This document shows, piece by piece, positions 41,964-63,940 of a stretch of 64,000 bases of DNA. Both the position numbers and the translations under genes were made by a program. The stretch is taken from positions 409 through 64,408 of the forward strand of contig CAJOMN010000011.1 in the NCBI GenBank assembly GCA_905235745.1, in the 5' to 3' direction. How positions within the stretch are numbered: position 1 is the stretch's first letter; every line of letters begins with the position of its first letter. Source of the DNA: an uncultured Lachnospiraceae bacterium. GTDB lineage: Bacteria; Bacillota; Clostridia; Lachnospirales; Lachnospiraceae. Below the pieces are notes generated by a model, which had not been told where the DNA came from, ran no database searches, and worked only from the letters and a program-made list of their open reading frames with translations.

Positions 41964-42051
41964 ATATAAGGAACGAATTTATTCGTTTGCTTATAGATGG
42001 TGTCTCAAACGGATTTGAGACTTGATTACTTCAGGGAAGAAGGTGTTAATC

Positions 42052-42855
42052 GTGACAAATTCCATTTATGGTACAGCCGGCGTTTCATCGCCGGTATCCG
42101 CGTATTCTGCGCAATCAAAGCCCGTCAGAAAAGACCAGCCGAATAAAGCTGCCGAAACCGTTAGTAAAAGCGACTGGAAGCCGGTTTCGGGGAACAGTTC
42201 GCTCATTCCGACCGAAAAGGCCGGATACGGGACTGTTGTTGGCGACGTACAACTGTCTGACAAGGCAAAGGAGTATTATTCCAAGCTCAAGGAGAAGTTT
42301 GGAGGAGTTGATTTTATACTCGTAAGCCGTGATATGAAGGAGCAGGTTGAGGCAAATGCCAGCCGTTACGGCAATGCCAGCCGTCCGATAGTCCTCATTG
42401 ATGACGAGAAGATCGAGAAGATGGCAAACGATCCGGCATATGCGAAGAAATACGAGGGAATAATCGAATCCTCACTCGGAAAGCTTGAGGCTGCAAGGAA
42501 TTCTCTTGCCGCAAGCGGCGCTTCGATCAAGAATTTCGGCATGTCAGTCGGCGAGGACGGCAAGACGTCATTCTTTGCGGTTCTGGAAAAGGCAAGCGAT
42601 GCTGCCAACAGGATCAGAGAGAAGAACCTTGCAAAGCACAGAGCCGAGAAGGCAGACGAGAAGAAGAAGGCCGAGAAAGAGGCAAACGCAAAACGGCTTG
42701 AGAAGAAACCGGACGAAGAAAAAGACTATGTGGAATTTCGTTCCGATTCGCTCGAGGATCTTCTCGACAAGGTATCCAAATATGCATACGAGAACTCCGA
42801 AAATGCGCTGTTTGCAAGCGAAGGAATAGGAAACTCCATAGACTTTAAGGGGTGA
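42052..42855 (+). CDS. DUF6033-like protein, probable flagellar-regulon member
   Basis: 267 residues, no signal peptide. The N-terminus (TNSIYGTAGVSSPVSAYSAQSKP) is Ser/Ala-rich and unstructured-looking. The middle has VDFILVSRDMKEQVEANASRYGNASRPIVLIDDEKIEKMANDPAYAKKYEGIIESSLGKLEAARNSL, a module also seen in the proteins at 62352 and 63287; I associate it with DUF6033. A highly charged Lys/Glu helix (about 195-230) and a short end follow. The function is unknown. GTG 42052 has GAAGAAGG at good distance. The sigma-28-type promoter upstream suggests co-expression with flagella. The next gene starts 6 bp downstream. Confidence 0.7.
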   Translation: MTNSIYGTAGVSSPVSAYSAQSKPVRKDQPNKAAETVSKSDWKPVSGNSSLIPTEKAGYGTVVGDVQLSDKAKEYYSKLKEKFGGVDFILVSRDMKEQVEANASRYGNASRPIVLIDDEKIEKMANDPAYAKKYEGIIESSLGKLEAARNSLAASGASIKNFGMSVGEDGKTSFFAVLEKASDAANRIREKNLAKHRAEKADEKKKAEKEANAKRLEKKPDEEKDYVEFRSDSLEDLLDKVSKYAYENSENALFASEGIGNSIDFKG

Positions 42856-42861
42856 TGCGTT

Positions 42862-43833
42862 ATGGCAGGAATGATAAACCTGTCTCCGAAACCTGTCGGC
42901 GCGTTTGCCGCCATGCTCACCCAAAAAGACAACGGCAGCAGTACCGCCGGAGCAGATGTATCCAAGATACGCCGGGCACTTCGGAGCGGAGCCGCCAACT
43001 GCACCGCTGCCACGCCGGTTTCAGTTATCGACGGCATGAAGATGTATTCGGAAACTCTCAGGAAGCAGAGGAAGACGAACAAAGACACCTCACTTGCCAA
43101 AATGAAGCTCAAATACAGCTTCAATAAGATCTCTTCCAAGATCATCAGCAGTAAGACATCAGCATCGGCGCGAGAAGTCGTCTCTTCTGCCAGGAGAGAG
43201 ATCCAGAAGCTGAAAGCCGCCAGGAGAACGGGCAAATATGACGAGGAAGAGCTTGAAGCCGCTCTCGACCACGCAAAGGCAATGGAAAGGGTTGCCCGCA
43301 AGAAAGTAAGGCATCTCGAGGAAGAGGAAATGGCAAAGCGGTGCCGGAAGGAAGACGGCAGAACAGATACTCCTGCGGTCGATGCTGCTGACTGCGGACA
43401 GGAAGAGGATCCGGAAGAACAGGAATTGCGGGAGCTTCGCGGGCAGCTGGGTGAGATAGAAGAGACAGCGGAAAATGAACAATACATCGAGTCCGCCGAG
43501 GTTACCAATGAGATGATAAGCGAAATATGCGACGGCATGGAAGAAATGCTTGATGCTATGGAAGACCTCAATGATCTGCTGGATGAGATGGCAGAAAACC
43601 CTGTAAACATGGACCCCGAAGATATCGATGCTCTCGTGATAAAGCACCGGAACAATGAAATGAAGGAAATTACAAAGGCTGATGCCGATTACCTAAAAGC
43701 GCTGTTTGATCATTACGAGAAGATCAAAGCAGGCGGCGGATGTTTGTATGGCGGCGGTACGGGGAGTACAGCGATCCCTGATATCGCGCCTGTGTCCGCA
43801 GAGGCATGCCCCGCAATAGATGTTGCGTTGTAA
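42862..43833 (+). CDS. Coiled-coil protein of the sigma-28 two-gene unit
   Basis: 323 residues, no signal peptide. It starts AGMINLSPKPVGAFAAMLTQK, then a Ser/Thr-rich basic helical part (LAKMKLKYSFNKISSKIISSKTSASAREVVSSARREIQKLKAARRTGKY) with long charged helices (about 125-160 and 185-240), and ends in a Gly-rich tail. The region EEELEAALDHAKAMERVARKKVRHLEEEE is a predicted coiled coil. I do not recognise a named family, but the layout resembles the helical proteins at 61146 and 61775. GGGGTG precedes ATG 42862; the 6-bp gap couples it to the DUF6033-like gene. Confidence 0.68.
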   Translation: MAGMINLSPKPVGAFAAMLTQKDNGSSTAGADVSKIRRALRSGAANCTAATPVSVIDGMKMYSETLRKQRKTNKDTSLAKMKLKYSFNKISSKIISSKTSASAREVVSSARREIQKLKAARRTGKYDEEELEAALDHAKAMERVARKKVRHLEEEEMAKRCRKEDGRTDTPAVDAADCGQEEDPEEQELRELRGQLGEIEETAENEQYIESAEVTNEMISEICDGMEEMLDAMEDLNDLLDEMAENPVNMDPEDIDALVIKHRNNEMKEITKADADYLKALFDHYEKIKAGGGCLYGGGTGSTAIPDIAPVSAEACPAIDVAL

Positions 43834-53582: not shown

Positions 53583-54065
53583 TTACCATCCCTTTATCTG
53601 TTTGATCTGTTCAGCGCGTTCGGGGTCCTTGTGGTACTGAAGCTTGAATTTGATCGTTTCCACTATCTCTTTTCGGGATTCATCATCAAGCTGATAGAAT
53701 GAGGTGAGAAGATTGTCCACGTCAGGCATGCTGTTCTTGCCATATAGGTGCATTAAGGGATAGAGAGAGTACTTTATATAGGTCTTTACCCTTGAGGCAT
53801 CCAGGCTGCCTTTAAGGCCGTCAGGGAGGGTAGGATATATCTCTTCTTCCTTGATCTCCCCGGAAAACGGCATAGCTGAACATATCTCATTAACATCGAT
53901 CTCCAGTTCGTTTGCAAGTCTCAAGGCATAATCAAACCGGATATTTGAATCCTTCTGAATAATGGAATAAAGCGTTGTAGCGCTTATTCCGGTCGCTTTT
54001 GCTATTCTGCGGACATTTGTACCCTTGGCATCCAGATACTCTTTTAATTTGATCCCATCGCCCAT
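53583..54065 (-). CDS. XRE-family repressor of the mobile element
   Basis: 160 residues. The N-terminal HTH reads LKEYLDAKGTNVRRIAKATGISATTLYSIIQKDSNIRFDYALRLANELEIDVNEIC; the C-terminal part is helical (SLDASRVKTYIKYSLYPLMHLYGKNSMPDVDNLLTSFYQLDDESRKEIVETIKFKL) and probably mediates dimerisation. It is divergent from xis-int across a 246-bp spacer holding three copies of a TACGA-AAA-TCGTA palindrome, one beside each promoter, as expected for a repressor holding the element quiet and controlling itself. GGAGTG precedes the start. Confidence 0.85.
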   Translation of the reverse strand: MGDGIKLKEYLDAKGTNVRRIAKATGISATTLYSIIQKDSNIRFDYALRLANELEIDVNEICSAMPFSGEIKEEEIYPTLPDGLKGSLDASRVKTYIKYSLYPLMHLYGKNSMPDVDNLLTSFYQLDDESRKEIVETIKFKLQYHKDPERAEQIKQIKGW

Positions 54066-54093
54066 AATTCACTCCTTTAGTAAACAACTCATA

Positions 54094-54244
54094 TACGAAA
54101 ATTGTAAATCTGTAACAAATCATAGCACACAAATTACAATAAAACAAGGCATTTCTAACAAATATACGAAAATCGTAAAATATCCACCTACGAAGTATTG
54201 ACAAGTATAAAACAGGCTGTTATATTAAAAGTACGAAAATCGTA
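54094..54244. promoter_or_regulatory. Divergent control region with three repressor operators
   Basis: Operators: TACGAAAATTGTA 54094-54106, TACGAAAATCGTA 54165-54177 and 54232-54244. Rightward promoter TTGACA-17-TATATT (54198-54226) with the third operator just downstream; leftward promoter TTGTTT-17-TATGAT on the minus strand (54147-54119) with the first operator at its start point. The middle operator lies between the two. The centres are 71 and 67 bp apart. Confidence 0.75.
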
Positions 54245-54311
54245 AATGTGATAATTACGAAACAGAAATACCAAGAGGTTTTCGGAATAAAAAAGAAAGG
54301 AGGTAAACAGG

Positions 54312-54521
54312 ATGGAAACGATCAATATTCCGGAAAGCGAGATCAGGATGCTGACAGTAAAGGAACTGTGCAGAGTTCTCCGTATCGGAAGGGACAAGGG
54401 ATACGCGCTGATGAAGTCTACCGGATTTCCGTCGGTAGTCATCGGCAAAAGATACTTCGTCTCAACCAGAGCACTCGATGACTGGCTCAAGAGATATGAG
54501 TACAAGAGATATGCAGTCTGA
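54312..54521 (+). CDS. xis: Excisionase-like HTH protein
   Basis: 69 residues with an MerR/Xis-type winged helix: IRMLTVKELCRVLRIGRDKGYALMKSTGFPSVVIGKRYFVSTRALDDWLKRYEYKRY. Such proteins bend DNA at element ends and turn the integrase towards excision. AAAGGAGG precedes ATG 54312, and the integrase gene follows at 72 bp, the usual pair in Tn916-like elements. Confidence 0.85.
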   Translation: METINIPESEIRMLTVKELCRVLRIGRDKGYALMKSTGFPSVVIGKRYFVSTRALDDWLKRYEYKRYAV

Positions 54522-54593
54522 TAGAGCAAAGTAAAAAAAGGGCAGTAAAGAAATGCAAAAGGTATCAAATCAAAAAAGAAAGGGGGTGAGGAA

Positions 54594-55862
54594 ATGGAGA
54601 AAACTTCAAAAAGGAACGCCAAAGGACAGGGCTGCTTCATAAAGTGCGAAGATGGCGGAATCAAGTACAGGAAGGGTGTAGGAAGTGCACCTAACGGAAA
54701 GAGAAAGGTACTGGTTGTCAAAGCGGCTACCAAGGCTGCCTGCATAAAGAAAATGAAGGAAAAGGAAGAAGAGTGGAACCGTAGGAGACAGGCACTCAGC
54801 ATCAGCAAGGCAAATACCGTTGAGGAACTGTGCTCAAGACATCTGCAGTTTCAGATGCAGAACAACGAACTCAAGCCCAAATCCGTGGACCGAAGAGAAG
54901 GTACTATCGTAAACCAGATCGGTAAATACGGACTTGGGCACATGCAGGTTGCATCGGTCACACCGGCTGACATAGAGAATCATATTGCCGGACTGATCAA
55001 AAAAGACCTGTCAACATCGTCCATAGAAAAAGCACTGGATGTCCTGAATGCGGCCTATGAATGGGCGGTGGCCCGGGGAGAACTTGAGACCAATCCGGTC
55101 CTGCAGATAAAAAGAACAATAAAGCGACGACTGGCAAAACTTGAGCAGAAGAATGAGTATGACGCGGATGTGATCATACTGTCGGAAGAGGAAGAACAAA
55201 AGTTTCTGACAGAGTGTCTCAGGAAGAATGTTAATAACGGGGAATACAAGTATTCGGGAGGACTCTATGGAAGACTTCTGCTCCACACCGGGATGAGAGT
55301 CGGAGAACTGATAAGCCTCAAATGGAAAGATTACGATGAAAACAGCGGAACACTTACGATCAACAAAAGTACATCCGTGATAAAGAATCGTAACAAAAAA
55401 ACCGGTGAGAACAATTATATCTCGGTTCAGGGTTCCACCAAAAATCAGAAGGCAAGGGTCATAGGACTGTCGGATGAAGCGATACTTGATCTCAAACTGA
55501 TAAGAGGATACAGACCGGGAAGGGATGACGAACTTATCTGCCGGACCAGGACGGGAGAGGCTTATACCGGAACCAAAATGGCACACTGTATGGAAACAAT
55601 ATACAGCAAGCTCGGATCGGAAACAAAGATAAGCGGACTGCACATTCTCCGCAGGACATTTGCGACAAGAATGTATGAGAACGGTGCCGGTGTCAAAGAA
55701 ATCGCGGCTTATATCGGGGATCTTGAATCAACCACGATGCAGTACTATATCGCGGCAAGAAAGAAGATAAAGATCAAGGATAAGCTGAACCAGTACGTGC
55801 CATTGCCGGGGAAGAAAAGAGAAAACGTCCCTGATGCGAACAAGGACGTTTCTCTAAGATAA
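54594..55862 (+). CDS. int: Tyrosine recombinase/integrase, Tn916-like
   Basis: 422 residues. N-terminal arm-binding domain (KRNAKGQGCFIKCEDGGIKYRKGVGSAPNGKRKVLVVKAATKAACIKKMK), SAM-like core-binding domain (about 70-170), and the catalytic domain with R235 in HTGMRVGELISLKWKD, H350 and R353 in HILRRTFATRMYENG and the nucleophile in TTMQYYIAA (Tyr384 or Tyr385). It integrates and excises the element; the tRNA-Gln 3' end is the probable target. GGGGGTG precedes ATG 54594. Hairpins with AAACGTCC/GGACGTTT (within the end) and AACGCCTTT/AAAGGCGTT (55870-55914) follow, the latter a possible terminator. Confidence 0.95.
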   Translation: MEKTSKRNAKGQGCFIKCEDGGIKYRKGVGSAPNGKRKVLVVKAATKAACIKKMKEKEEEWNRRRQALSISKANTVEELCSRHLQFQMQNNELKPKSVDRREGTIVNQIGKYGLGHMQVASVTPADIENHIAGLIKKDLSTSSIEKALDVLNAAYEWAVARGELETNPVLQIKRTIKRRLAKLEQKNEYDADVIILSEEEEQKFLTECLRKNVNNGEYKYSGGLYGRLLLHTGMRVGELISLKWKDYDENSGTLTINKSTSVIKNRNKKTGENNYISVQGSTKNQKARVIGLSDEAILDLKLIRGYRPGRDDELICRTRTGEAYTGTKMAHCMETIYSKLGSETKISGLHILRRTFATRMYENGAGVKEIAAYIGDLESTTMQYYIAARKKIKIKDKLNQYVPLPGKKRENVPDANKDVSLR

Positions 55863-55935
55863 GAAGGACAACGCCTTTCCTATCTGCGTATATCAAGAGT
55901 ATAGCAAAGGCGTTTCCCTTACTAAATGAAAGGAG

Positions 55936-56445
55936 GTGAGAAAGACGGTTATTAAGAACAAAACAAAGGGAAACTTCGTTATGGTCTCAAAAGAAATACT
56001 GAAGGACAGTCGCCTTAAGCTGCGCGAAAGGGGACTCCTGATCACGCTGTTATCGTTGAAGGATGATTGGGATTTTTCAATAAGGGGACTGGCAGCAATA
56101 CTTCCTGATGGTCGCGATGCTATAGACAAGAGTTTTAAGAAGCTGATCGAGCTGGGATACGTGTCGATAAAACCGGTTAGAGGAGAAAACGGGACTTTTG
56201 CAGGGAATGATGTCGAAATATTTGAAATACTGGCATCCGCACCGATTACTGAAAATCCGGACACGGTTATTCCATATACGGGAAGACCGGATGCGGGAAA
56301 AACGTCCCAATATAAGAATAAGAAATATAAAGATATTAAAGAATATAAAAATAAAAAAAGGCAGTGTGTCAACAGCTTCAGTCAGTTCAATCAGAGGACT
56401 TATGACTATGATGCTTTGCAAAGGGAAGCGTTGGGATTTTCATAG
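55936..56445 (+). CDS. Element HTH protein (replication-initiator-like)
   Basis: About 169 residues; the first 85 form a winged helix: IKNKTKGNFVMVSKEILKDSRLKLRERGLLITLLSLKDDWDFSIRGLAAILPDGRDAIDKSFKKLIELGYVSIKPV, as in helix-turn-helix proteins of many Firmicutes elements. The C-terminal part is Lys-rich and unordered. The start is doubtful: the best ribosome binding site AGGAGG (55931-55936) overlaps the first possible GTG (55936), and no other ATG/GTG/TTG lies before Met at 55981, so translation may start at a rare codon near 55945-55951. A nine-codon frame starting ATG 55926 overlaps it. Confidence 0.7.
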   Translation: MRKTVIKNKTKGNFVMVSKEILKDSRLKLRERGLLITLLSLKDDWDFSIRGLAAILPDGRDAIDKSFKKLIELGYVSIKPVRGENGTFAGNDVEIFEILASAPITENPDTVIPYTGRPDAGKTSQYKNKKYKDIKEYKNKKRQCVNSFSQFNQRTYDYDALQREALGFS

Positions 56446-56485
56446 TTTCCTGATCTTTCCTTTTTCAAGAAGAGCAAGCATCGCC

Positions 56486-56531
56486 AAATGGTACCATTTT
56501 GCTGAAAAACTGCCCTTGGGGATAACCCCAA
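56486..56531. promoter_or_regulatory. Candidate oriT: palindrome and hairpin before mobC
   Basis: AAATGGTACCATTT (56486-56499) is a perfect palindrome and TTGGGG-ATAA-CCCCAA (56516-56531) a perfect hairpin, followed by ACCC and T-rich DNA just before mobC. Transfer origins usually sit beside mobC and hold such inverted repeats. The nick site cannot be told. Confidence 0.35.
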
Positions 56532-56565
56532 ACCCTATTTTTTTACCAGAGGAGAAAATCATAAT

Positions 56566-56907
56566 ATGGAAAATCTATCCAGATCAATACAGGTTAAGTT
56601 CCGCGTAAATGCCCTTGAACGAGAAAAGATCAGGGACAGAATGAAGGAATGTAATATCAGAAACCTGGGACGATATTTAAGGAATATGGCTATCAACGGA
56701 TGCATTATCAAACCCGATTATACCGAGATCAAGAGGATGAATTGTGAACTTCATAAGATAGGAGTGAACATCAATCAGGTTGCCAAGAAGGCGAATGAGA
56801 CCGGCAGCATCTATGCCGAGGATTTGAGATTGTTACAGGAGATGATGGATACAATATGGCAATTGCAGAGATATATTCTATCCGAAGAACCTATACCGGG
56901 AGCATAG
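56566..56907 (+). CDS. mobC: Mobilization protein MobC
   Basis: 113 residues with the MobC relaxosome pattern: SIQVKFRVNALEREKIRDRMKECNIRNLGRYLRNMAINGCIIKPDYTEIKRMNCELHKIGVNINQVAKKANETGSIYAEDLRLLQEMMDTIWQLQRYI (HKIGVNINQVAK is the typical stretch). MobC opens DNA at oriT and helps the relaxase to nick. A relaxase gene normally follows; here there is none, only a repeat-rich spacer. AGAGGAG precedes ATG 56566. Confidence 0.9.
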   Translation: MENLSRSIQVKFRVNALEREKIRDRMKECNIRNLGRYLRNMAINGCIIKPDYTEIKRMNCELHKIGVNINQVAKKANETGSIYAEDLRLLQEMMDTIWQLQRYILSEEPIPGA

Positions 56908-57050: not shown

Positions 57051-57160
57051 TCGCGATATCGCGATGCACTGCTTGCGAATATGCATTCGGTGGCCACCGA
57101 TGCCCTGCTTGCGAATATGCATTCGGTGGCCACCGATGCCCTGCTTGCGAAGAATATGCA
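57051..57160. repeat. 36-bp tandem repeat with palindromes
   Basis: Units 57063-57098 and 57099-57134 differ at one base, and a third partial unit begins at 57135. Each holds GGTGGCCACC (perfect palindrome) and TGCTTGCGAATATGCA. Directly before the array is TCGCGATATCGCGA (57051-57064), also perfect. The rest of 56908-57050 has a GGGGAA..TTCCCC hairpin and no credible gene. Confidence 0.75.
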
Positions 57161-57195
57161 ATTCACGTCGAAAAAAGTGCGTTTCATGTAATGTG
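57157..57195 (+). promoter_or_regulatory. LytTR-type operator before the response regulator gene
   Basis: A 39-bp block, 35 of 39 identical to 59522-59560. It contains two boxes TTCACGTCG and TTCATGTAA whose centres are 21 bp apart, i.e. two helical turns, with AAAAAGTGC between. A TG-G-TATACT extended -10 box (57231-57239) starts its hexamer 48 bp after the second box. Confidence 0.7.
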
Positions 57196-57264
57196 TATTA
57201 TTTTTCGCCTGCATAATCCGATAGATCAGGTGGTATACTGAGGCCATAGGAGTTAATCTATGCC

Positions 57265-58014
57265 ATGGATCAAGATATTAAGATAGCCATATGCGATGAT
57301 GAAAAACCTATAAGGGACTATATCGAGAAGTGTGTACGGGAAGTTGATCCGGACGCTTTGGTGTCACAATACTCTGATGCATCGGATATGGTATCGGCTA
57401 GTTTTGATGCGGATATCCTGTTTCTCGATATTCAAATGCCAGGGATGGACGGGATGAAGGCCGCACGGATACTCCGTACGATGGGCAATAAAACTATCCT
57501 TGTATTTGTAACTGCGGTGGAGGAATATGTTTTTCAGGCATTCGACGTCGGTGCCGTTCAGTATATAGTAAAACCGTTTGACAGAAACAAACTCGTTGAG
57601 ACAATAAAAAGATCGATCGACCTTGCCGGTGAGCGGAGGAGTATTGAGGATGCTATGTCCGAAACAAAAGACAGCACAGATAATGAGTCCTTTTTGATCA
57701 AATCTGGTGGTGTTAATCGGAAGATTATTCTTGCGGATATTTCATATGCAGAGGTACTTGAACACCGTATCATCCTTCATATGAAAGACCGTGAGCAGAT
57801 AGAGTACTATGGAAAAATGTCTGATCTCGAAAAGGTAGCGGGCGATGACTTTTTCAGAGTTCACAGAGCATATCTTATAAACCTGTCTTGTGTGAAGTCC
57901 TATGATGCAAAGACAGTGACTGTTCAAGGTGAGGAAATACCTGTTGCCCGGGGTAAGTATCAGGAACTGGTTAAATCATATCTGTCTTACTTTACGGGTA
58001 AGGAGCATCTGTGA
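57265..58014 (+). CDS. AgrA/LytR-like response regulator (receiver + LytTR)
   Basis: 249 residues. Receiver domain 1-125 with AICDDEKPIRDYI, phospho-acceptor D55 in LFLDIQMPGMDG, FVTAVEEY and KPFD. LytTR DNA-binding domain about 145-245: FLIKSGGVNRKIILADISYAEVLEHRIILHMKDREQIEYYGKMSDLEKV and DDFFRVHRAYLINLSCVKSYD..EIPVARGKYQEL. Such regulators bind paired direct repeats two turns apart. The operator directly upstream suggests autoregulation. GGAG stands 12 bases before ATG 57265. The kinase gene overlaps its stop codon by one base. Confidence 0.93.
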   Translation: MDQDIKIAICDDEKPIRDYIEKCVREVDPDALVSQYSDASDMVSASFDADILFLDIQMPGMDGMKAARILRTMGNKTILVFVTAVEEYVFQAFDVGAVQYIVKPFDRNKLVETIKRSIDLAGERRSIEDAMSETKDSTDNESFLIKSGGVNRKIILADISYAEVLEHRIILHMKDREQIEYYGKMSDLEKVAGDDFFRVHRAYLINLSCVKSYDAKTVTVQGEEIPVARGKYQELVKSYLSYFTGKEHL

Positions 58015-59417
58015 TGGACTATATCGTGTCAAACTTTGAATCATTTGCAGATATCTATATAAGGTGTCTGGTGATAGCATACATCATCAGCATGGCCGTT
58101 CTGTTCGAGTTTTGGATGAAACCATTCGTTCAGGAGCTGAAGGCGGCGTATCTTGCGGCGATTATCTACTTTGTTTTCAGATTCATTTATTATCTGATCC
58201 CGATAGACAGTGAGTTACTAGAGGGGATTTCGCTAATAATAGTATTAATAGCCTTCGTTGCTGCATGGCTGGCGGATAAGAAACGTAATCCAATCCAGAA
58301 GCTGTTCCTGTGCATATTGTTTTATGTAATGAGTTTTCTGACATATGAGATATCTGTTGAGATCGGTCTTTTTGAGAGCGAGTATATATCGCGGTTTGAC
58401 TGGTATCATTCTGACGCCAAAGCCATTGCGATCGAGTTTATCATATGGAATCTTATCGATTATGCACTAGCTGCTGTGATAATGTTTGTCTCCATGCGGA
58501 TCATACATAAGACATACAAAAGAAAACACGAAGAACTGTCATGGAAGGAATTGTTGATTCTGCTTACTCCTTCATGGGCAATTCTTATAGTAAAGCCGAT
58601 CATGCTTGCATATTTCAGGCTTTGGATGGATGGGATCGGGAACGGGAGTATTAAGGAGAATATCCCGGCAAGTATTTTCCGTCTTGGCTTCTGCGTATTA
58701 TCCGTGCTGTCGCTGGTCGTGATCATCATGCTCTATCAGAACATAAAGGAATCGAAGGAAAATGAGTTCGCCATGCAGGCGCTTGAAAGCCAAAAAGAAG
58801 ATACTGTCCGTCACGCAGAGCAGATTGAGGATATGTATGAGAAAATAAGGGCCATGCGGCATGATATGGGCAATCATATGGCTGTTATAGAAGGCCTGAT
58901 CGATAGAGGCGAACGGGAAGCACTGGATGAATACATCGGACAATGGAAAAAGAATTACGAAGAGTCAGGAATGTCCGTAAAAACAGGCAATCCGATCATT
59001 GACGTTGCGATATCAGAGTTCGCCGGAAGATTTGAAAAGGAAAATATACCGTTTGAGCATTCGTTCCGCTACCCGGAACAGTTACAGATAAACCCGTTTG
59101 ATATGAGTGTTGTCATCACAAATGCCCTCCAGAACGCCTATGAGGCATCTGTGTCCGCACAGGATCCATCTGTAAAGCTTACATCCGTCATCCATGACAA
59201 TACATTTATCATAAGTCTTAAAAATCATATCGATAGCAAAGCATATATCGATCCAGAAGAGGAACTCCCGGTCTCGTCCAAGAAGGAGGACGGCCATGGG
59301 TACGGACTCAAGAATATAAGAACGATCGCCCAAAAGTATAAGGGGGATATCGAAATACGTCAGGAATCTGATAAATACGGCTACATTTTTGTCCTGAACG
59401 TCATGTTCATCGGCTGA
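58014..59417 (+). CDS. AgrC/VirS-like sensor histidine kinase (GHKL)
   Basis: 467 residues. Six membrane segments fill the first about 235 residues, then a coiled linker (KENEFAMQALESQKEDTVRHAEQIEDMYEKI), H283 in RAMRHDMGNHMAVIEGLI, the N box VVITNALQNAYEAS and the G box GHGYGLKNIRTIAQKYKG, close to AgrC/VirS/ComD peptide sensors. No agrB or agrD peptide gene is in the window, so the signal is unknown. ATG 58014 is preferred to GTG 58011, with GGAG upstream; it overlaps the regulator's stop. Confidence 0.92.
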   Translation: MDYIVSNFESFADIYIRCLVIAYIISMAVLFEFWMKPFVQELKAAYLAAIIYFVFRFIYYLIPIDSELLEGISLIIVLIAFVAAWLADKKRNPIQKLFLCILFYVMSFLTYEISVEIGLFESEYISRFDWYHSDAKAIAIEFIIWNLIDYALAAVIMFVSMRIIHKTYKRKHEELSWKELLILLTPSWAILIVKPIMLAYFRLWMDGIGNGSIKENIPASIFRLGFCVLSVLSLVVIIMLYQNIKESKENEFAMQALESQKEDTVRHAEQIEDMYEKIRAMRHDMGNHMAVIEGLIDRGEREALDEYIGQWKKNYEESGMSVKTGNPIIDVAISEFAGRFEKENIPFEHSFRYPEQLQINPFDMSVVITNALQNAYEASVSAQDPSVKLTSVIHDNTFIISLKNHIDSKAYIDPEEELPVSSKKEDGHGYGLKNIRTIAQKYKGDIEIRQESDKYGYIFVLNVMFIG

Positions 59418-59423
59418 TCTACT

Positions 59424-59456
59424 ATTCACGTTATAAAAAGTGCACTTCACGTCAAA
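59424..59456 (+). promoter_or_regulatory. LytTR-type operator, distal copy before the six-gene run
   Basis: ATTCACGTTA and CTTCACGTCA with ACGT cores at 59428 and 59449 (21-bp spacing) and AAAAAGTGC between; it aligns without gaps with the copies at 57157 and 59522. It starts 7 bp after the kinase stop. TTGATT-16-GATACT (59461-59488) may be a promoter just downstream. Confidence 0.6.
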
Positions 59457-59521
59457 TCTATTGATTATTCCCGTTAATTCCCGATACTGAAATCAAACGA
59501 TCAATACATTTTCCGGCCAAA

Positions 59522-59560
59522 TGCATTTTACGTCGGAAAAAGTGCGTTTCACGTAATGTG
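59522..59560 (+). promoter_or_regulatory. LytTR-type operator, proximal copy before the six-gene run
   Basis: TTTTACGTCG and TTTCACGTAATG with ACGT cores at 59530 and 59551 (21-bp spacing), AAAAAGTGC between. A weak GATACA lies 48 bp after the second box, the same distance as the TATACT of the 57157 copy. Confidence 0.68.
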
Positions 59561-59659
59561 GGTTTATTTGATGCTGTCCTATTACGATAGAACGATTAGA
59601 TACAGCATCTTATGTTGCAAGGAAACGGATTTCATAAGAAGAACAGGAGGTTCAGGAAG

Positions 59660-60436
59660 ATGTCAACAATAAGACAAACAGCAGGCAGTAATTATTTTGA
59701 TGAAACATATGGTGGAGGCAGTTCGGGTTATTCCAACGATTTTCTGTCAGGATTGAGCGTCAATACCAACAGTAATGGTGGCGGTTCATTAGATCTGGCG
59801 GATTATGCCATGATCAAGAACGGATCATACGGCAAGCTTATGAAGGCGTACTACGGACAGGAAAAGGCACAGAAGGCCGCAGAGTCCAAGGAAAGTACTT
59901 CCAAGCTTACACAGATGGCCGGTAACGCCGGAGGAATGGCGAATGCAGCAAAAACTTTGATGGATGATTCATTATGGCAGAAGAAGACCATTACGGAGAA
60001 AGACGATAAGACCGGAGAGGAAACGACCAAAGAGGATTACGACTGGAAGGCTATCACAAAGGCTGTTAAAGGCTTTATCGAGAACTATAACAACACAGTA
60101 TCCGGTGCGGGTGAATCCGATACAAAGGGTGTGCTGAGAAATGCATCCTTCATGGTCAAGACAACCGCGGCATATAAGAAAACACTTGAAAAGGCCGGTA
60201 TCACGATCACAAGCGGTAATAGGCTCGAACTTAACGAGGAAGACCTTAAGAATGCTGACATTTCAACGCTTAAGACACTGTTTACGGGTTACAACTCTTT
60301 TGCCGACAAGATTGCAACAAAGGGTAATACGATAGCAAACGAAGCCGCAAGTGCCGGCGGAACATATACGAGCAATGGAACGTATTCTAAAGCACTGTCA
60401 CAGATAGTATCGACCAAGATCGATACCAAAGAATAA
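59660..60436 (+). CDS. FliD C-terminal-like protein, first gene of the six-gene run
   Basis: 258 residues, no Sec signal. The N-terminus is Gly/Ser/Asn-rich (QTAGSNYFDETYGGGSSGYSNDFLSGLSV). From about residue 125 it reads AITKAVKGFIENYNNTVSGAGESDTKGVLRNASFMVKTTAAYKKTLEKAGITITSGNRLELNEEDLKNADISTLKTLF, which has the shape of the FliD/HAP2 C-terminal domain (FV-x-x-YN, L-x-x-x-GI-x-x-x-x-x-x-L-x-L-x-E-x-x-L). It may be a cap-like or filament-associated protein passing through the flagellar export route. AGGAGG sets ATG 59660. Two LytTR operators lie upstream. Confidence 0.7.
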   Translation: MSTIRQTAGSNYFDETYGGGSSGYSNDFLSGLSVNTNSNGGGSLDLADYAMIKNGSYGKLMKAYYGQEKAQKAAESKESTSKLTQMAGNAGGMANAAKTLMDDSLWQKKTITEKDDKTGEETTKEDYDWKAITKAVKGFIENYNNTVSGAGESDTKGVLRNASFMVKTTAAYKKTLEKAGITITSGNRLELNEEDLKNADISTLKTLFTGYNSFADKIATKGNTIANEAASAGGTYTSNGTYSKALSQIVSTKIDTKE

Positions 60437-60482: not shown

Positions 60483-61130
60483 ATGTCAATGAACGTAGGA
60501 ACAGATTATACGAATTACAAAACCGGATACACTAACGCAGATAATCAGAAAAAGGATGTCGATATTTCCGAAAAGACTGCAGAGCAGGGCAAGACTGCGT
60601 ATGTTAAGGAAGGCGTTGTTTATGACAAGTCCGGGGAAAAAGTAGACAACTCAACATATTCGATCAATAAAATGAGCGTGTCAGACAGGGCTGCAATCGT
60701 CGATCAGCTGAAAGAAGATGCAAGGCAGAGGGAACAGCAGCTTGTAAGCATCGTACACAGAACAATAGCGGATCAGGCCGGAGCATATGGAAAAGCCACC
60801 GGAAATGATATCTGGACACTCCTTTCCGGCGGGAAGGTAACTGTAACAGCAGCTGAAAAGGCGCAGGCACAGAGGGATATCAGCGAAGACGGGTATTACG
60901 GCGTTAAGCAGACATCCCAGAGACTGTTTGACTTTGCATGCGCACTTGCTGGGGATGATGTTGATAAGATGAAGGAAATGCAAAAAGCCATGGAGAAGGG
61001 CTTCAAGCTTGCTACAAAATCATGGGGCAAGGAACTTCCGGGCATATGCGGAGAGACTTTTGATGTGGCTAACAAGTTGTTCGAGGAGTATTACAGGTCA
61101 AAAGATCCCGGGGCTGTACTGTCAGAGTAG
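60483..61130 (+). CDS. DUF5610-like protein
   Basis: 215 residues, no Sec signal. N-terminal half polar (SMNVGTDYTNYKTGYTNADNQKKD), then helical: MSVSDRAAIVDQLKEDARQREQQLVSIVHRTIADQAGAYG and EDGYYGVKQTSQRLFDFACALAGDDVDKMKEMQKAMEKGFKLATKSWGKELPGICGETFDVANKLFEEYY. The last stretch matches what I remember of DUF5610 (V-x-x-T-x-x-R-x-x-x-FA...A-x-x-x-GF-x-x-A...LP-x-I-x-x-x-T-x-D). The function is unknown. AAGGAGG at 60467-60473 makes ATG 60483 the probable start rather than 60474. Confidence 0.72.
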   Translation: MSMNVGTDYTNYKTGYTNADNQKKDVDISEKTAEQGKTAYVKEGVVYDKSGEKVDNSTYSINKMSVSDRAAIVDQLKEDARQREQQLVSIVHRTIADQAGAYGKATGNDIWTLLSGGKVTVTAAEKAQAQRDISEDGYYGVKQTSQRLFDFACALAGDDVDKMKEMQKAMEKGFKLATKSWGKELPGICGETFDVANKLFEEYYRSKDPGAVLSE

Positions 61131-61145
61131 GAAAGGACTCGTGTT

Positions 61146-61733
61146 ATGAACATAGCTATGAAAGGCACCGGCCTTCTCGGAATGGGTAATCCCGGTCTTA
61201 AGAGTACACAGGACCGTTTGGACAGAATGGCCAAAAGAGATAATAAAATAGCGTTCTTTGAGCAGCAGAAAGAGAATCTGAAGACCATGAAGACGGATTC
61301 GCTTGAAGATATCTCAAGAAAACTGGAAATGCTTCATGGTTATGATGATCAGATCGCGCTTGCCAAGGTTGAGTTCAACAACAGTCAGGTCTTCCATATG
61401 CTTGATGAAGCAAGGGAACTTGGCGAGAAGATCGCTGAGGCAGCCGAGAAGAATGCTCCGAAGACTCCTGAAGAGAGACGAGAGGATATGATCGAAGAGG
61501 CTACAGGAGTAGATATGGACGGTGGAATCCTCGGAGAAGTGATGGACGAACTCGAGGATATCACGGAAGAGATGACGGAGAAAGCTGCGGAAGAACTTGA
61601 GGAAATGGCAGAGGAGACTCTTTCGGAGCAGGATCTGAAACAGGCGTTGTATCAGGAACCTATAAAAACAGAAGATCCGGTGGAAGATGATCTGTTGCCG
61701 GATAAGTATAAACGGATCGATTACCGGGTATAG
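61146..61733 (+). CDS. Acidic coiled-coil protein of the six-gene run
   Basis: 195 residues, no signal. It starts NIAMKGTGLLGMGNPGLKSTQDRLDRMAKRDNKIAFFEQQKENLKTMK, then mostly helix with an acidic heptad-rich stretch (EELEEMAEETLSEQDL). I do not recognise a family. Gln/Lys-rich helices like FEQQKENLKTM suggest a coiled coil. AAAGGA precedes ATG 61146; gaps of 15 and 41 bp link it to its neighbours. Confidence 0.68.
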   Translation: MNIAMKGTGLLGMGNPGLKSTQDRLDRMAKRDNKIAFFEQQKENLKTMKTDSLEDISRKLEMLHGYDDQIALAKVEFNNSQVFHMLDEARELGEKIAEAAEKNAPKTPEERREDMIEEATGVDMDGGILGEVMDELEDITEEMTEKAAEELEEMAEETLSEQDLKQALYQEPIKTEDPVEDDLLPDKYKRIDYRV

Positions 61734-61774: not shown

Positions 61775-62323
61775 ATGGCATTATCAGGTATCATGACAAC
61801 ATCGCTGTTGTCGGCAAATAATTCAATGAAGATCGCAAGAGTACAGCAGGGTGCCAAGAACCAGATGGATGGACACGCCGGTGTGCTTGATGCAGAGATA
61901 AAGCTGGATAGCGCCCGGGGCGGAGATGTTAAGAAAAAACAGGAAGAGCTTGAGGAGACAAAGAAAAAGGCTTCCGAACTTGAAGAATCCACTATGAACA
62001 CGCTTTCGGCTGCATCCGATGATCTGAAGAAGGCGGCTAAAGACGATCTTGAAGCCAGAAGGGCAGAGAAGGCTGAAGAAAAGAAGAAAGCCGAAAAAGC
62101 AGCAGAGAAAAAGAGGGCGGAGAAGAAGGCTACCGAAGAGAGGATTGAGAAGATCGGCGAAGCAGCTACTTCTGAAACCGGAGAGGTATCTGATGGTGAT
62201 CATAGTGTATCGGTAGAGGGAACAACGCTTGAAGGTGCCACGATCAATGTCGTTGTAGACGGTGTAACTCCGAGCACGGGCGTAACCGGAACAATAGGTG
62301 TATCGGTGGACGAAAAAGCATAA
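61775..62323 (+). CDS. Charged helical protein of the six-gene run
   Basis: 182 residues, no Sec signal. The N-terminal part ALSGIMTTSLLSANNSMKIARVQQGAKNQMDGHAGVLDAEIKLDSARGG recalls flagellin-type export ends in its Ser/Asn/Ala make-up, but it is not a match. A long Lys/Glu/Ala helix (about 50-130, KKKQEELEETKKKASELEESTMN ... RRAEKAEEKKKAEKAAEKKRAEKKATEER) follows, then a Gly/Thr/Val-rich end. The function is unknown. AAAGGAGG precedes ATG 61775. Confidence 0.68.
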   Translation: MALSGIMTTSLLSANNSMKIARVQQGAKNQMDGHAGVLDAEIKLDSARGGDVKKKQEELEETKKKASELEESTMNTLSAASDDLKKAAKDDLEARRAEKAEEKKKAEKAAEKKRAEKKATEERIEKIGEAATSETGEVSDGDHSVSVEGTTLEGATINVVVDGVTPSTGVTGTIGVSVDEKA

Positions 62324-62351: not shown

Positions 62352-63167
62352 ATGTCTATGAATATTGTTTCTGCATTAGGATCCAATTCAATCAACAGCA
62401 TTCGAAATACAGTCAAGAATGCTTCAAAGCCGACATGGAATGGCTTGAAGGCCTATAAATATCTTGAGGATATGAACAGTGCTGCTTTGGACTATGGTGC
62501 GCAGGCAACAAAATACTATTCATCTCAGACATCTAAAGATGGTGAGATGTCTGTAGATGATTTAAGAAAACAGATCAAAGAACTCTTTCCTGAATACACG
62601 CTTTCAAGTTCTGAACCACAAAAAGTGGTAAATGGAAAACATTATCTTTATATAGATGAGAGCCAGTTAAAAAAGATGGCTGCTGATTCAGGATATCGAG
62701 CAAAAGTATACGGCCTTATGGATCGCGAATATGCTTGTGGTAAAGAGTATACGCTAACATACAGTGACGGGCAGAATAAAACCCTTCATTGTACGGGGAG
62801 TATATTCTCTCTGAGTGAAAAGAACAGAAAATATGCAGGGGCAGATGGTGTACCATATCTTGGCAGTTGTACAACAGATGGTGGGTTTTCATCTACACAA
62901 TCTCATCCTCAGGTTCGTAGTCAAAGTTTCTTATATAACAACATAGATCCTGCAAAATCGGCAAAGAAAAGCAGGACAATGGCTACAAAATCAATAACTG
63001 AAAAGTTGGCTAAAAAGCGGGCAGATAATAAGAAAATAGAAGCTAAGAAGGTAAAAAAGGCGGAGCAAAAGAAACTAGAAGAAAAGCGTGAGGAAAGAAA
63101 AGCCGAGGAAGAGGAACGCATGGAAAAATTCTTCTCAGAAGGGTCATTATTTGACGCAATGGCATAA
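62352..63167 (+). CDS. DUF6033-like protein with Lys/Glu coiled coil
   Basis: 271 residues, no signal. NIVSALGSNSINSIRNTVKNASKPTWNGLKAYKYLEDM at the start; then MSVDDLRKQIKELFPEYTL, HYLYIDESQLKKMAADSGYRAKVYGLMDREY, GKEYTLTYSDGQNKTLHCTGSIFSLSE and a C-terminal charged helix (about 215-265). The Y-I-D-E-x-x-L-K-K-M-A-x-D-x-x-Y stretch parallels LIDDEKIEKMANDPAY in the protein at 42052. It starts ATG 62352 (AGGTGGTGG upstream); ATG 62334 is the alternative. It is clearly more AT-rich than the four genes before it. Confidence 0.68.
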   Translation: MSMNIVSALGSNSINSIRNTVKNASKPTWNGLKAYKYLEDMNSAALDYGAQATKYYSSQTSKDGEMSVDDLRKQIKELFPEYTLSSSEPQKVVNGKHYLYIDESQLKKMAADSGYRAKVYGLMDREYACGKEYTLTYSDGQNKTLHCTGSIFSLSEKNRKYAGADGVPYLGSCTTDGGFSSTQSHPQVRSQSFLYNNIDPAKSAKKSRTMATKSITEKLAKKRADNKKIEAKKVKKAEQKKLEEKREERKAEEEERMEKFFSEGSLFDAMA

Positions 63168-63286: not shown

Positions 63287-63940
63287 ATGAGCGGGATAAA
63301 TGCGGTTAATAACGGTAAATCCGGTGGATTTCTACAGGGAATTCAGACGACGATAAAAGAAAAACTGAATAATGCTATTGAGGAAGGAGCTGTCTCCAAC
63401 GCATTTGATGAAGGAGCAGCTGCAACCCTTTCAATATCGTCATCCGGGATCGCTCAGGCCAGTCGAGCAGAAAGAGAGACTATACTTCAGCAATCTATAG
63501 TCCAGTTGGATGGCGGATACAGAAAGTTTAATCTTACTGATGAAGAGGCCTGTATTCTCAAGAGTTTCAGACTGGAAGAATACTATGATATCCGAAATAG
63601 AATGAAAAATGAGGATATCAACGCATATAATGATCTGTTAAAGTCTGAAGAGATTGCCGACAAGAATTCCGATCCGAGCGAAAAGTTTAAAGTATATGCA
63701 AAAGCATATAACTGGGCTTACGGGGACGTTTTTGACAGAATCCATAAGGAAAATCCGGAAGTTGATATTTATGTAAGATCACCGGGAACGGAGGAAAATC
63801 ATAACTATCAAATTAGAAATAACAGAACCTCACTTATTATTTCCACGGATGAAATAAAACTCCTTCAGTCAAAAAATGATGATGATAAGAAAGCACAGGA
63901 AGAACTGTGGAAAAGGATTCTGGATAAGATTAGGTCATGA
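63287..63940 (+). CDS. DUF6033-like protein, last gene of the six-gene run
   Basis: 217 residues, no signal. SGINAVNNGKSGGFLQGIQTTIKEKLNNAIEEG, then LTDEEACILKSFRLEEYYDIRNRMKNEDINAYNDLLKSEEIADKNSDPSEKFKVYAKAYNWAYGDVFDRIHKENPEVDIYV, ending NRTSLIISTDEIKLLQSKNDDDKKAQEELWKRILDKI. The ending has the I-x-x-(D/E)-x-I-x-x-L module shared with the 42052 and 62352 proteins. The function is unknown. AAGGAGG precedes ATG 63287. It may have its own sigma-28 promoter. The last 60 bases of the window hold nothing I can identify. Confidence 0.68.
   Translation: MSGINAVNNGKSGGFLQGIQTTIKEKLNNAIEEGAVSNAFDEGAAATLSISSSGIAQASRAERETILQQSIVQLDGGYRKFNLTDEEACILKSFRLEEYYDIRNRMKNEDINAYNDLLKSEEIADKNSDPSEKFKVYAKAYNWAYGDVFDRIHKENPEVDIYVRSPGTEENHNYQIRNNRTSLIISTDEIKLLQSKNDDDKKAQEELWKRILDKIRS

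Follow-up and report, generated by a model that had tools for sequence, protein, structure and literature searches.

Putative activation of sigma28-type promoters of a flagellum-linked gene cassette by a LytTR two-component system in Lachnospiraceae

In an uncultured bacterium of the family Lachnospiraceae, a LytTR-type response regulator and its neighbouring sensor kinase are accompanied by operators that stand at a nearly fixed distance from MCGATA, the -10 hexamer of sigma28 promoters, and a six-gene cassette with resemblance to flagellar proteins follows. We consider it very probable that this LytTR system regulates its own gene and has a genuine regulon. A more far-reaching model, in which the weak promoters of the flagellum-type cassette depend on the kinase/LytTR pair for activation of sigma28 polymerase, appears rather probable to us. 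All coordinates given below without further designation refer to the forward strand of the window, i.e., the whole 64-kb stretch of DNA that was analysed, and the operators, -10 elements, regulator and kinase genes and cassette genes described in it lie on this strand.

The Regulator and Its Sensor Kinase

The gene at 57265-58014 encodes a protein of 249 aa with a receiver (PF00072) and a LytTR domain (PF04397), both above the Pfam cut-off, and the adjoining gene at 58014-59417 specifies a GHKL sensor kinase of 467 aa with matches to SPOB_a and HATPase_c_5, an MRHDMGNH motif and about seven predicted transmembrane segments in its N-terminal part. In AgrCA/ComDE-type quorum-sensing systems, a receiver-LytTR regulator is likewise combined with a polytopic GHKL kinase bearing an RHD-type motif, and direct repeats with a 21-bp period likewise lie upstream of the regulator's own gene. 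The window system shares the characters of the AgrA/ComE type, namely receiver plus LytTR domain, an adjacent multispan GHKL kinase and upstream 21-bp repeats, but differs in that its targets have a sigma28-type -10 element. Matches to the NCBIfam models for AgrA and AgrC are far below the cut-off, and inspection of the lists of open reading frames, to which this search was confined, did not bring out any adjoining agrB/agrD-type signal-peptide gene.

LytTR Regulatory Systems such as HdrRM and BrsRM resemble the window system in autoregulation and in repeat period, their 9-bp direct repeats being located 12 bp apart (period 21) directly ahead of the -35 region, from where HdrR and BrsR act as activators (PMC6193735). 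These systems, however, consist of a LytTR protein and a membrane inhibitor protein, whereas a receiver-bearing regulator and a kinase are encoded here. A relation to motility has been described for agr of Clostridioides difficile 027, the LytTR regulator of which is needed for flagellar gene expression; this effect is global as seen by RNA-seq, and no binding site is mentioned in the text (PMC3754575).

Operators and Extent of the Regulon

The preliminary description of this DNA had proposed three near-identical LytTR operators governing the regulator gene and the gene run starting at 59660. Reading of the sequence bears out the three boxes (cores at 57162-57189, 59425-59452 and 59527-59554), their repeat period of 21 bp and the identity of 35 of 39 bases between the first and third blocks. 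Two details need amendment: the two copies of TTYACGT ascribed to each box are present in the second and third, the second half of the first reading TTCATGT, and the element AAAAAGTGC reported to lie between the repeats is present but partly constitutes the 5' end of the second repeat. Comparison across loci yields a fuller operator unit, RTGCNTTTCACGT (13 bp), which occurs twice with a period of 21 bp and an A-rich spacer of 8 bp. The cores have the form TTYAYGT-N14-TTYAYGT; allowing for up to three mismatches, three matches were obtained in the window and none in any of 100 dinucleotide shuffles of it.

Operator 1 (TTCACGT-N14-TTCATGT, period 21; fuller unit from 57157) is situated upstream of the regulator gene and is kept in front of orthologous regulators in relatives. 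Operator 2 (TTCACGT-N14-TTCACGT) starts 8 bp past the stop codon of the kinase gene, the same position being found in genomes G022, G045, G041 and G002, and operator 3 (TTTACGT-N14-TTCACGT) follows 102 bp after it, such that both reside between the kinase gene and gene 1 of the cassette. This tandem arrangement recurs with a spacing of 101-103 bp on contig C23 of the same genome as well as in G022 and G045. A 36-bp tandem repeat (57062-57151, 2.5 copies, 98% matches) ends just before operator 1.

In the complete 2.5-Mb genome, the pattern TTYAYGT...AAAAGTGC occurs at five sites, i.e., the three in the window and two on C23 that are 101 bp apart and precede an operon that lacks a regulator gene and is composed of paralogues of genes 1, 2 and 4. 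A sixth operator at C11:68162, about 3.8 kb beyond the window, consists of TTCACGT twice at 21 bp without AAAAGTGC and is followed by a solitary LytTR gene together with two cargo-like genes. The designation of the regulon as local therefore holds for the window genes and falls short of the operons on C23 and at C11:68162. A strict 34-bp pattern retrieved 13 sites in seven of 37 congeneric genomes, all of them beside orthologous regulators or cassette genes, and the reversed pattern retrieved none in the same genomes. Conservation of the boxes next to orthologous LytTR genes, the absence of which had been named as grounds for abandoning the proposal, was found in front of orthologues of 73-85% identity, and looser scans detected operators also at regulators of about 53-56% identity. 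The conserved boxes thus support the proposal that the regulator controls its own gene and the six-gene run.

In G015, at the chromosomal position also used in G022, only a 34-aa remnant of the regulator persists. The operators are still there (locus L063, around 5731 and 12938), one being that of the regulator and one preceding gene 6.

A sigma28-Type -10 Element at Fixed Distance

Each operator in the window is followed by a sigma28-type -10 hexamer, CCGATA at 57218-57223 (28 bp after operator 1), CCGATA at 59481-59486 (28 bp after operator 2) and ACGATA at 59584-59589 (29 bp after operator 3). In a set of 23 operators, [ACG]CGATA, mostly as CCGATA or ACGATA, occurs 28 or 29 bp past the second repeat in 18 cases and at none of the other offsets from 0 to 94. 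Many of the 23 operators are orthologous and these counts are not independent; grouping by spacer similarity leaves about ten unrelated spacers and shared spacer descent therefore does not explain the fixed offset. When 565 kb were scanned blindly for 21-bp direct repeats that start with T[TC][CT] and are followed by NCGATA, counts had their maximum at offsets 28-30, with 34 at 28-29, about one per offset outside 28-30 and 0-2 in shuffled sequence. The same geometry is present at loci with unlike repeats (L071, L045, L131, L128, L121 and L118). Loci of this kind found by the blind scan have CCGTTCGTTACA before a FliD_C-like gene of Butyrivibrio MC2021 (L071), ACCGTTYACTACA in G008 (L045) and CCATTCATTACA in G024 (L131), and cassettes of G403, G241 and G016 are likewise among them. 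As far as these sequences go, the repeats vary with the regulator, and MCGATA and its distance are constant.

The sigma28 consensus of Butyrivibrio fibrisolvens is TAAA-N16/17-MCGATAa (PMC3720852). Its -10 element, MCGATA, is common to class III (sigma28/FliA) promoters of B. fibrisolvens, flagellin-type genes of the genome studied here and the operator promoters. The latter differ from class III promoters in lacking the TAAA -35 element and in having a LytTR operator that abuts the -35 region; within two mismatches, no full sigma28 promoter was found upstream of gene 1 or of the regulator gene in the window. Due to this absence of TAAA, the case for sigma28 is built on the -10 element and its context. 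FliA and FlhA are encoded in the genome, and CCGATA or ACGATA precedes three of its five Flagellin_N genes within about 80-135 bp. The sigma28 pattern alone is not specific, because several of its 18 perfect matches in the genome are without a plausible gene behind them. Taking hexamer and context together, we consider it likely that the cargo promoters are transcribed by sigma28 polymerase.

For the regulator genes the situation is more varied. In G266 and in Butyrivibrio proteoclasticus P18 the regulator promoter carries TATAAT or a GATAAT-like hexamer and the cargo promoter TCGATA or ACGATA at the same place. This contrast points to a -10 element the sigma type of which changes, and suggests that the cargo, more than the regulator, is tied to sigma28. 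A sigmaA-like -10 also takes the place of MCGATA in the regulator promoters of L047, L075 and Butyrivibrio L032, L033 and L072, from which it appears that such regulators can work with sigmaA.

These promoters lend some weight to another reading, according to which an ordinary autoregulated LytTR system uses promoters of the sigmaA type, MCGATA being a degenerate form of their -10 element (GATACT, GATAAT) and the flagellar likeness of the cargo incidental. The -10 elements of both sigma types share the same place, TATAAT or a similar hexamer is found exactly there in some related regulator promoters, known LytTR sites lie just upstream of -35 (PMC6193735) and the regulator gene of the window has a possible sigmaA -10 element, TATACT (57234-57239), 10 bp past its CCGATA. 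We nevertheless regard this reading as unlikely, since the conserved part is MCGATA including the C before GATA and not the 3' T of the sigmaA hexamer, and since the cargo families go together with FlhA, other copies of them often having sigma28 promoters (see below). Less probable still is that sigma28 promoters are repressed by the regulator and not activated. A repression loop could arise between the tandem operators, which lie about 102 bp apart, but a missing TAAA -35 combined with an operator just upstream of -35 is typical of activation, and HdrR and BrsR activate from such positions (PMC6193735). A role of MCGATA as an additional, third site contacted by the LytTR regulator, and not as a promoter element, would agree with its constant spacing from the repeats but is highly improbable in view of TATAAT at that place in the regulator promoter of G266, the cargo promoter of which has TCGATA, and of the same hexamer upstream of flagellin-type genes that lack LytTR repeats.

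The Cassette and Its Link to Flagella

Gene 1 of the cassette (59660-60436, 258 aa) is FliD-D1-like. Its own match to FliD_C (E 7e-4) is below the cut-off, its homologues are above it, and one homologue that passes is a member of a second gene pair of this genome, at C10. A profile of the gene-1 family found Pseudomonas FliD in the PDB at 1.2e-4. In the AlphaFold model the core comprises residues 77-234, the N-terminal 76 residues being of low confidence. The top nine VIA matches of this core are all FliD (Z 15.0 to 10.8, other helical bundles reaching at most 10.3), with E. coli FliD first at Z 15.0 over 156 aligned residues and an rmsd of 4.2. The top four Foldseek matches are FliD as well, at weak E-values (0.13). 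Gene 1 shares the match to FliD_C and the D1 fold with the flagellar cap protein FliD; it differs in its length of 258 aa and in that the Pfam scan gave no FliD_N match.

Gene 2 (60483-61130) belongs to a family present in 160 of 392 Lachnospirales genomes, and its AlphaFold model (pLDDT 57) is too poor for a fold search. Gene 3 (61146-61733) encodes a charged protein that lacks a signal peptide and transmembrane segments and is conserved in cassettes of Butyrivibrio and others, the G008 homologue of gene 4 (61775-62323) is FlxA-like (PF14282), gene 5 (62352-63167) matches DUF6033 weakly while relatives have a clear DUF6033 protein at the same place in the cassette, and the G015 orthologue of gene 6 (63287-63940) has an operator of its own with ACGATA upstream. 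None of the six is named by NCBIfam. The preliminary statement that the function of these genes is undescribed has to be qualified given their flagellum-related relatives. Hydrophobic segments are predicted in none of the six proteins, and secretion via signal peptides was rejected on these grounds. An anti-phage function was likewise rejected, as PADLOC gave two marginal matches only, and marginal Pfam matches, for example to FapA, MLLE and SMP_2, were set aside because they fell below the cut-off.

The gene-2 and DUF6033 families are nearly confined to Lachnospirales that have flagella. FlhA is present in 156 of the 160 genomes with the gene-2 family, the four others each being less than 90% complete, and in 84 of 85 with the DUF6033 family, counts that are uncorrected for phylogeny. 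Among 40 gene-2 and DUF6033 genes without LytTR operators, 21 have a full sigma28-like promoter on the coding strand, compared with one of 40 on the reverse strand (expected 0.36); in the LytTR-driven copies tested, no such promoter was found within one mismatch. Family resemblance and co-occurrence with flagella lead us to favour, by a slight degree, exit of the cassette products through the flagellum.

Operator-less copies in the genome studied here are the gene-2/gene-1 pair at C10 and a DUF6033 gene in the window (42022-42855). The latter is full-length (E 7e-64), is preceded by the sigma28-like promoter TAAA-N17-CCGATAA and is followed by a gene (42862-43833) the product of which resembles Butyrivibrio cassette proteins by eye. 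No paper on DUF6033 was found in the full-text collection searched.

Proposed Mechanism

From the operators, their conservation, the promoter geometry, the linkage of the cargo to flagella and the FliD-like fold model, we infer regulator binding, activation, sigma28 use and export as follows. The GHKL kinase would sense a signal and phosphorylate the LytTR regulator, which would bind the paired 13-bp repeats immediately upstream of the -35 region and thereby activate its own gene, the six-gene cassette and two more cargo operons of this genome. Polymerase at these promoters would most likely be the sigma28 (FliA) form, with the regulator standing in for the -35 element, because the -10 is MCGATA and TAAA is missing. 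Expression of the cassette would in that case require both presence of the signal and free sigma28, i.e., a finished basal body, and the products, devoid of signal peptides, would probably be exported via the flagellar gate. Combining a LytTR system, sigma28 promoters and flagellar export would amount to an AND gate of signal and flagellar completion. Whether widespread, horizontally moving LytTR systems of the Lachnospiraceae generally activate sigma28 polymerase in this manner, integrating an outside signal with an assembly checkpoint and deploying variable cassettes as a signal-controlled flagellar secretome, is a tentative extension to which we give somewhat less than even weight.

Taken by themselves, LytTR systems, 21-bp repeats and sigma28 promoters are all familiar. 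The LytTR activators known act at housekeeping-type promoters, and those of the sigma28 class are usually regarded as independent of activators. A literature search on LytTR with sigma28 and on activators at sigma28 promoters returned no LytTR case in titles or abstracts, an absence that is no proof. If the model is true, Lachnospiraceae of gut and rumen make a set of flagellum-linked and probably exported proteins depend both on a signal from outside and on completion of the flagellum, and a concrete, testable rule would be available for many unannotated small genes including those for DUF6033.

Mobility and Variation of the Cassettes

Horizontal movement of the cassette is likely. In the window it follows genes for an integrase, an HTH_17 protein and MobC/NikA, in G045 it adjoins a relaxase gene, other genomes offer other surroundings and the strict pattern places it in seven of 37 genomes of the genus. 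The region at 53583-56907 encodes an Xre-type protein, an excisionase-like HTH_17 protein, a tyrosine integrase, an HTH_36 protein and NikA/MobC and represents an integrative mobilizable element; next to MobC there is no relaxase gene and the regulator cassette is found there instead.

Among the loci L064 (9714-10511 and 13011), L065 (10183-10980) and L028 (11761), the cassette contains an additional LytTR protein whose receiver is weak, and another type of repeat, GTTTTATGTCA...GTTTATGCA, is followed at 29 bp by ACGATA ahead of a cargo gene of 736-737 aa. A gene 1/gene 2 pair on contig C12 of the genome studied here (L067, 8561-12720) lies directly 3' of a penicillinase-repressor/BlaR1-type (M56) pair, and M56 genes are also present in Butyrivibrio cassettes, which suggests that regulators of more than one type go with these cargo families.
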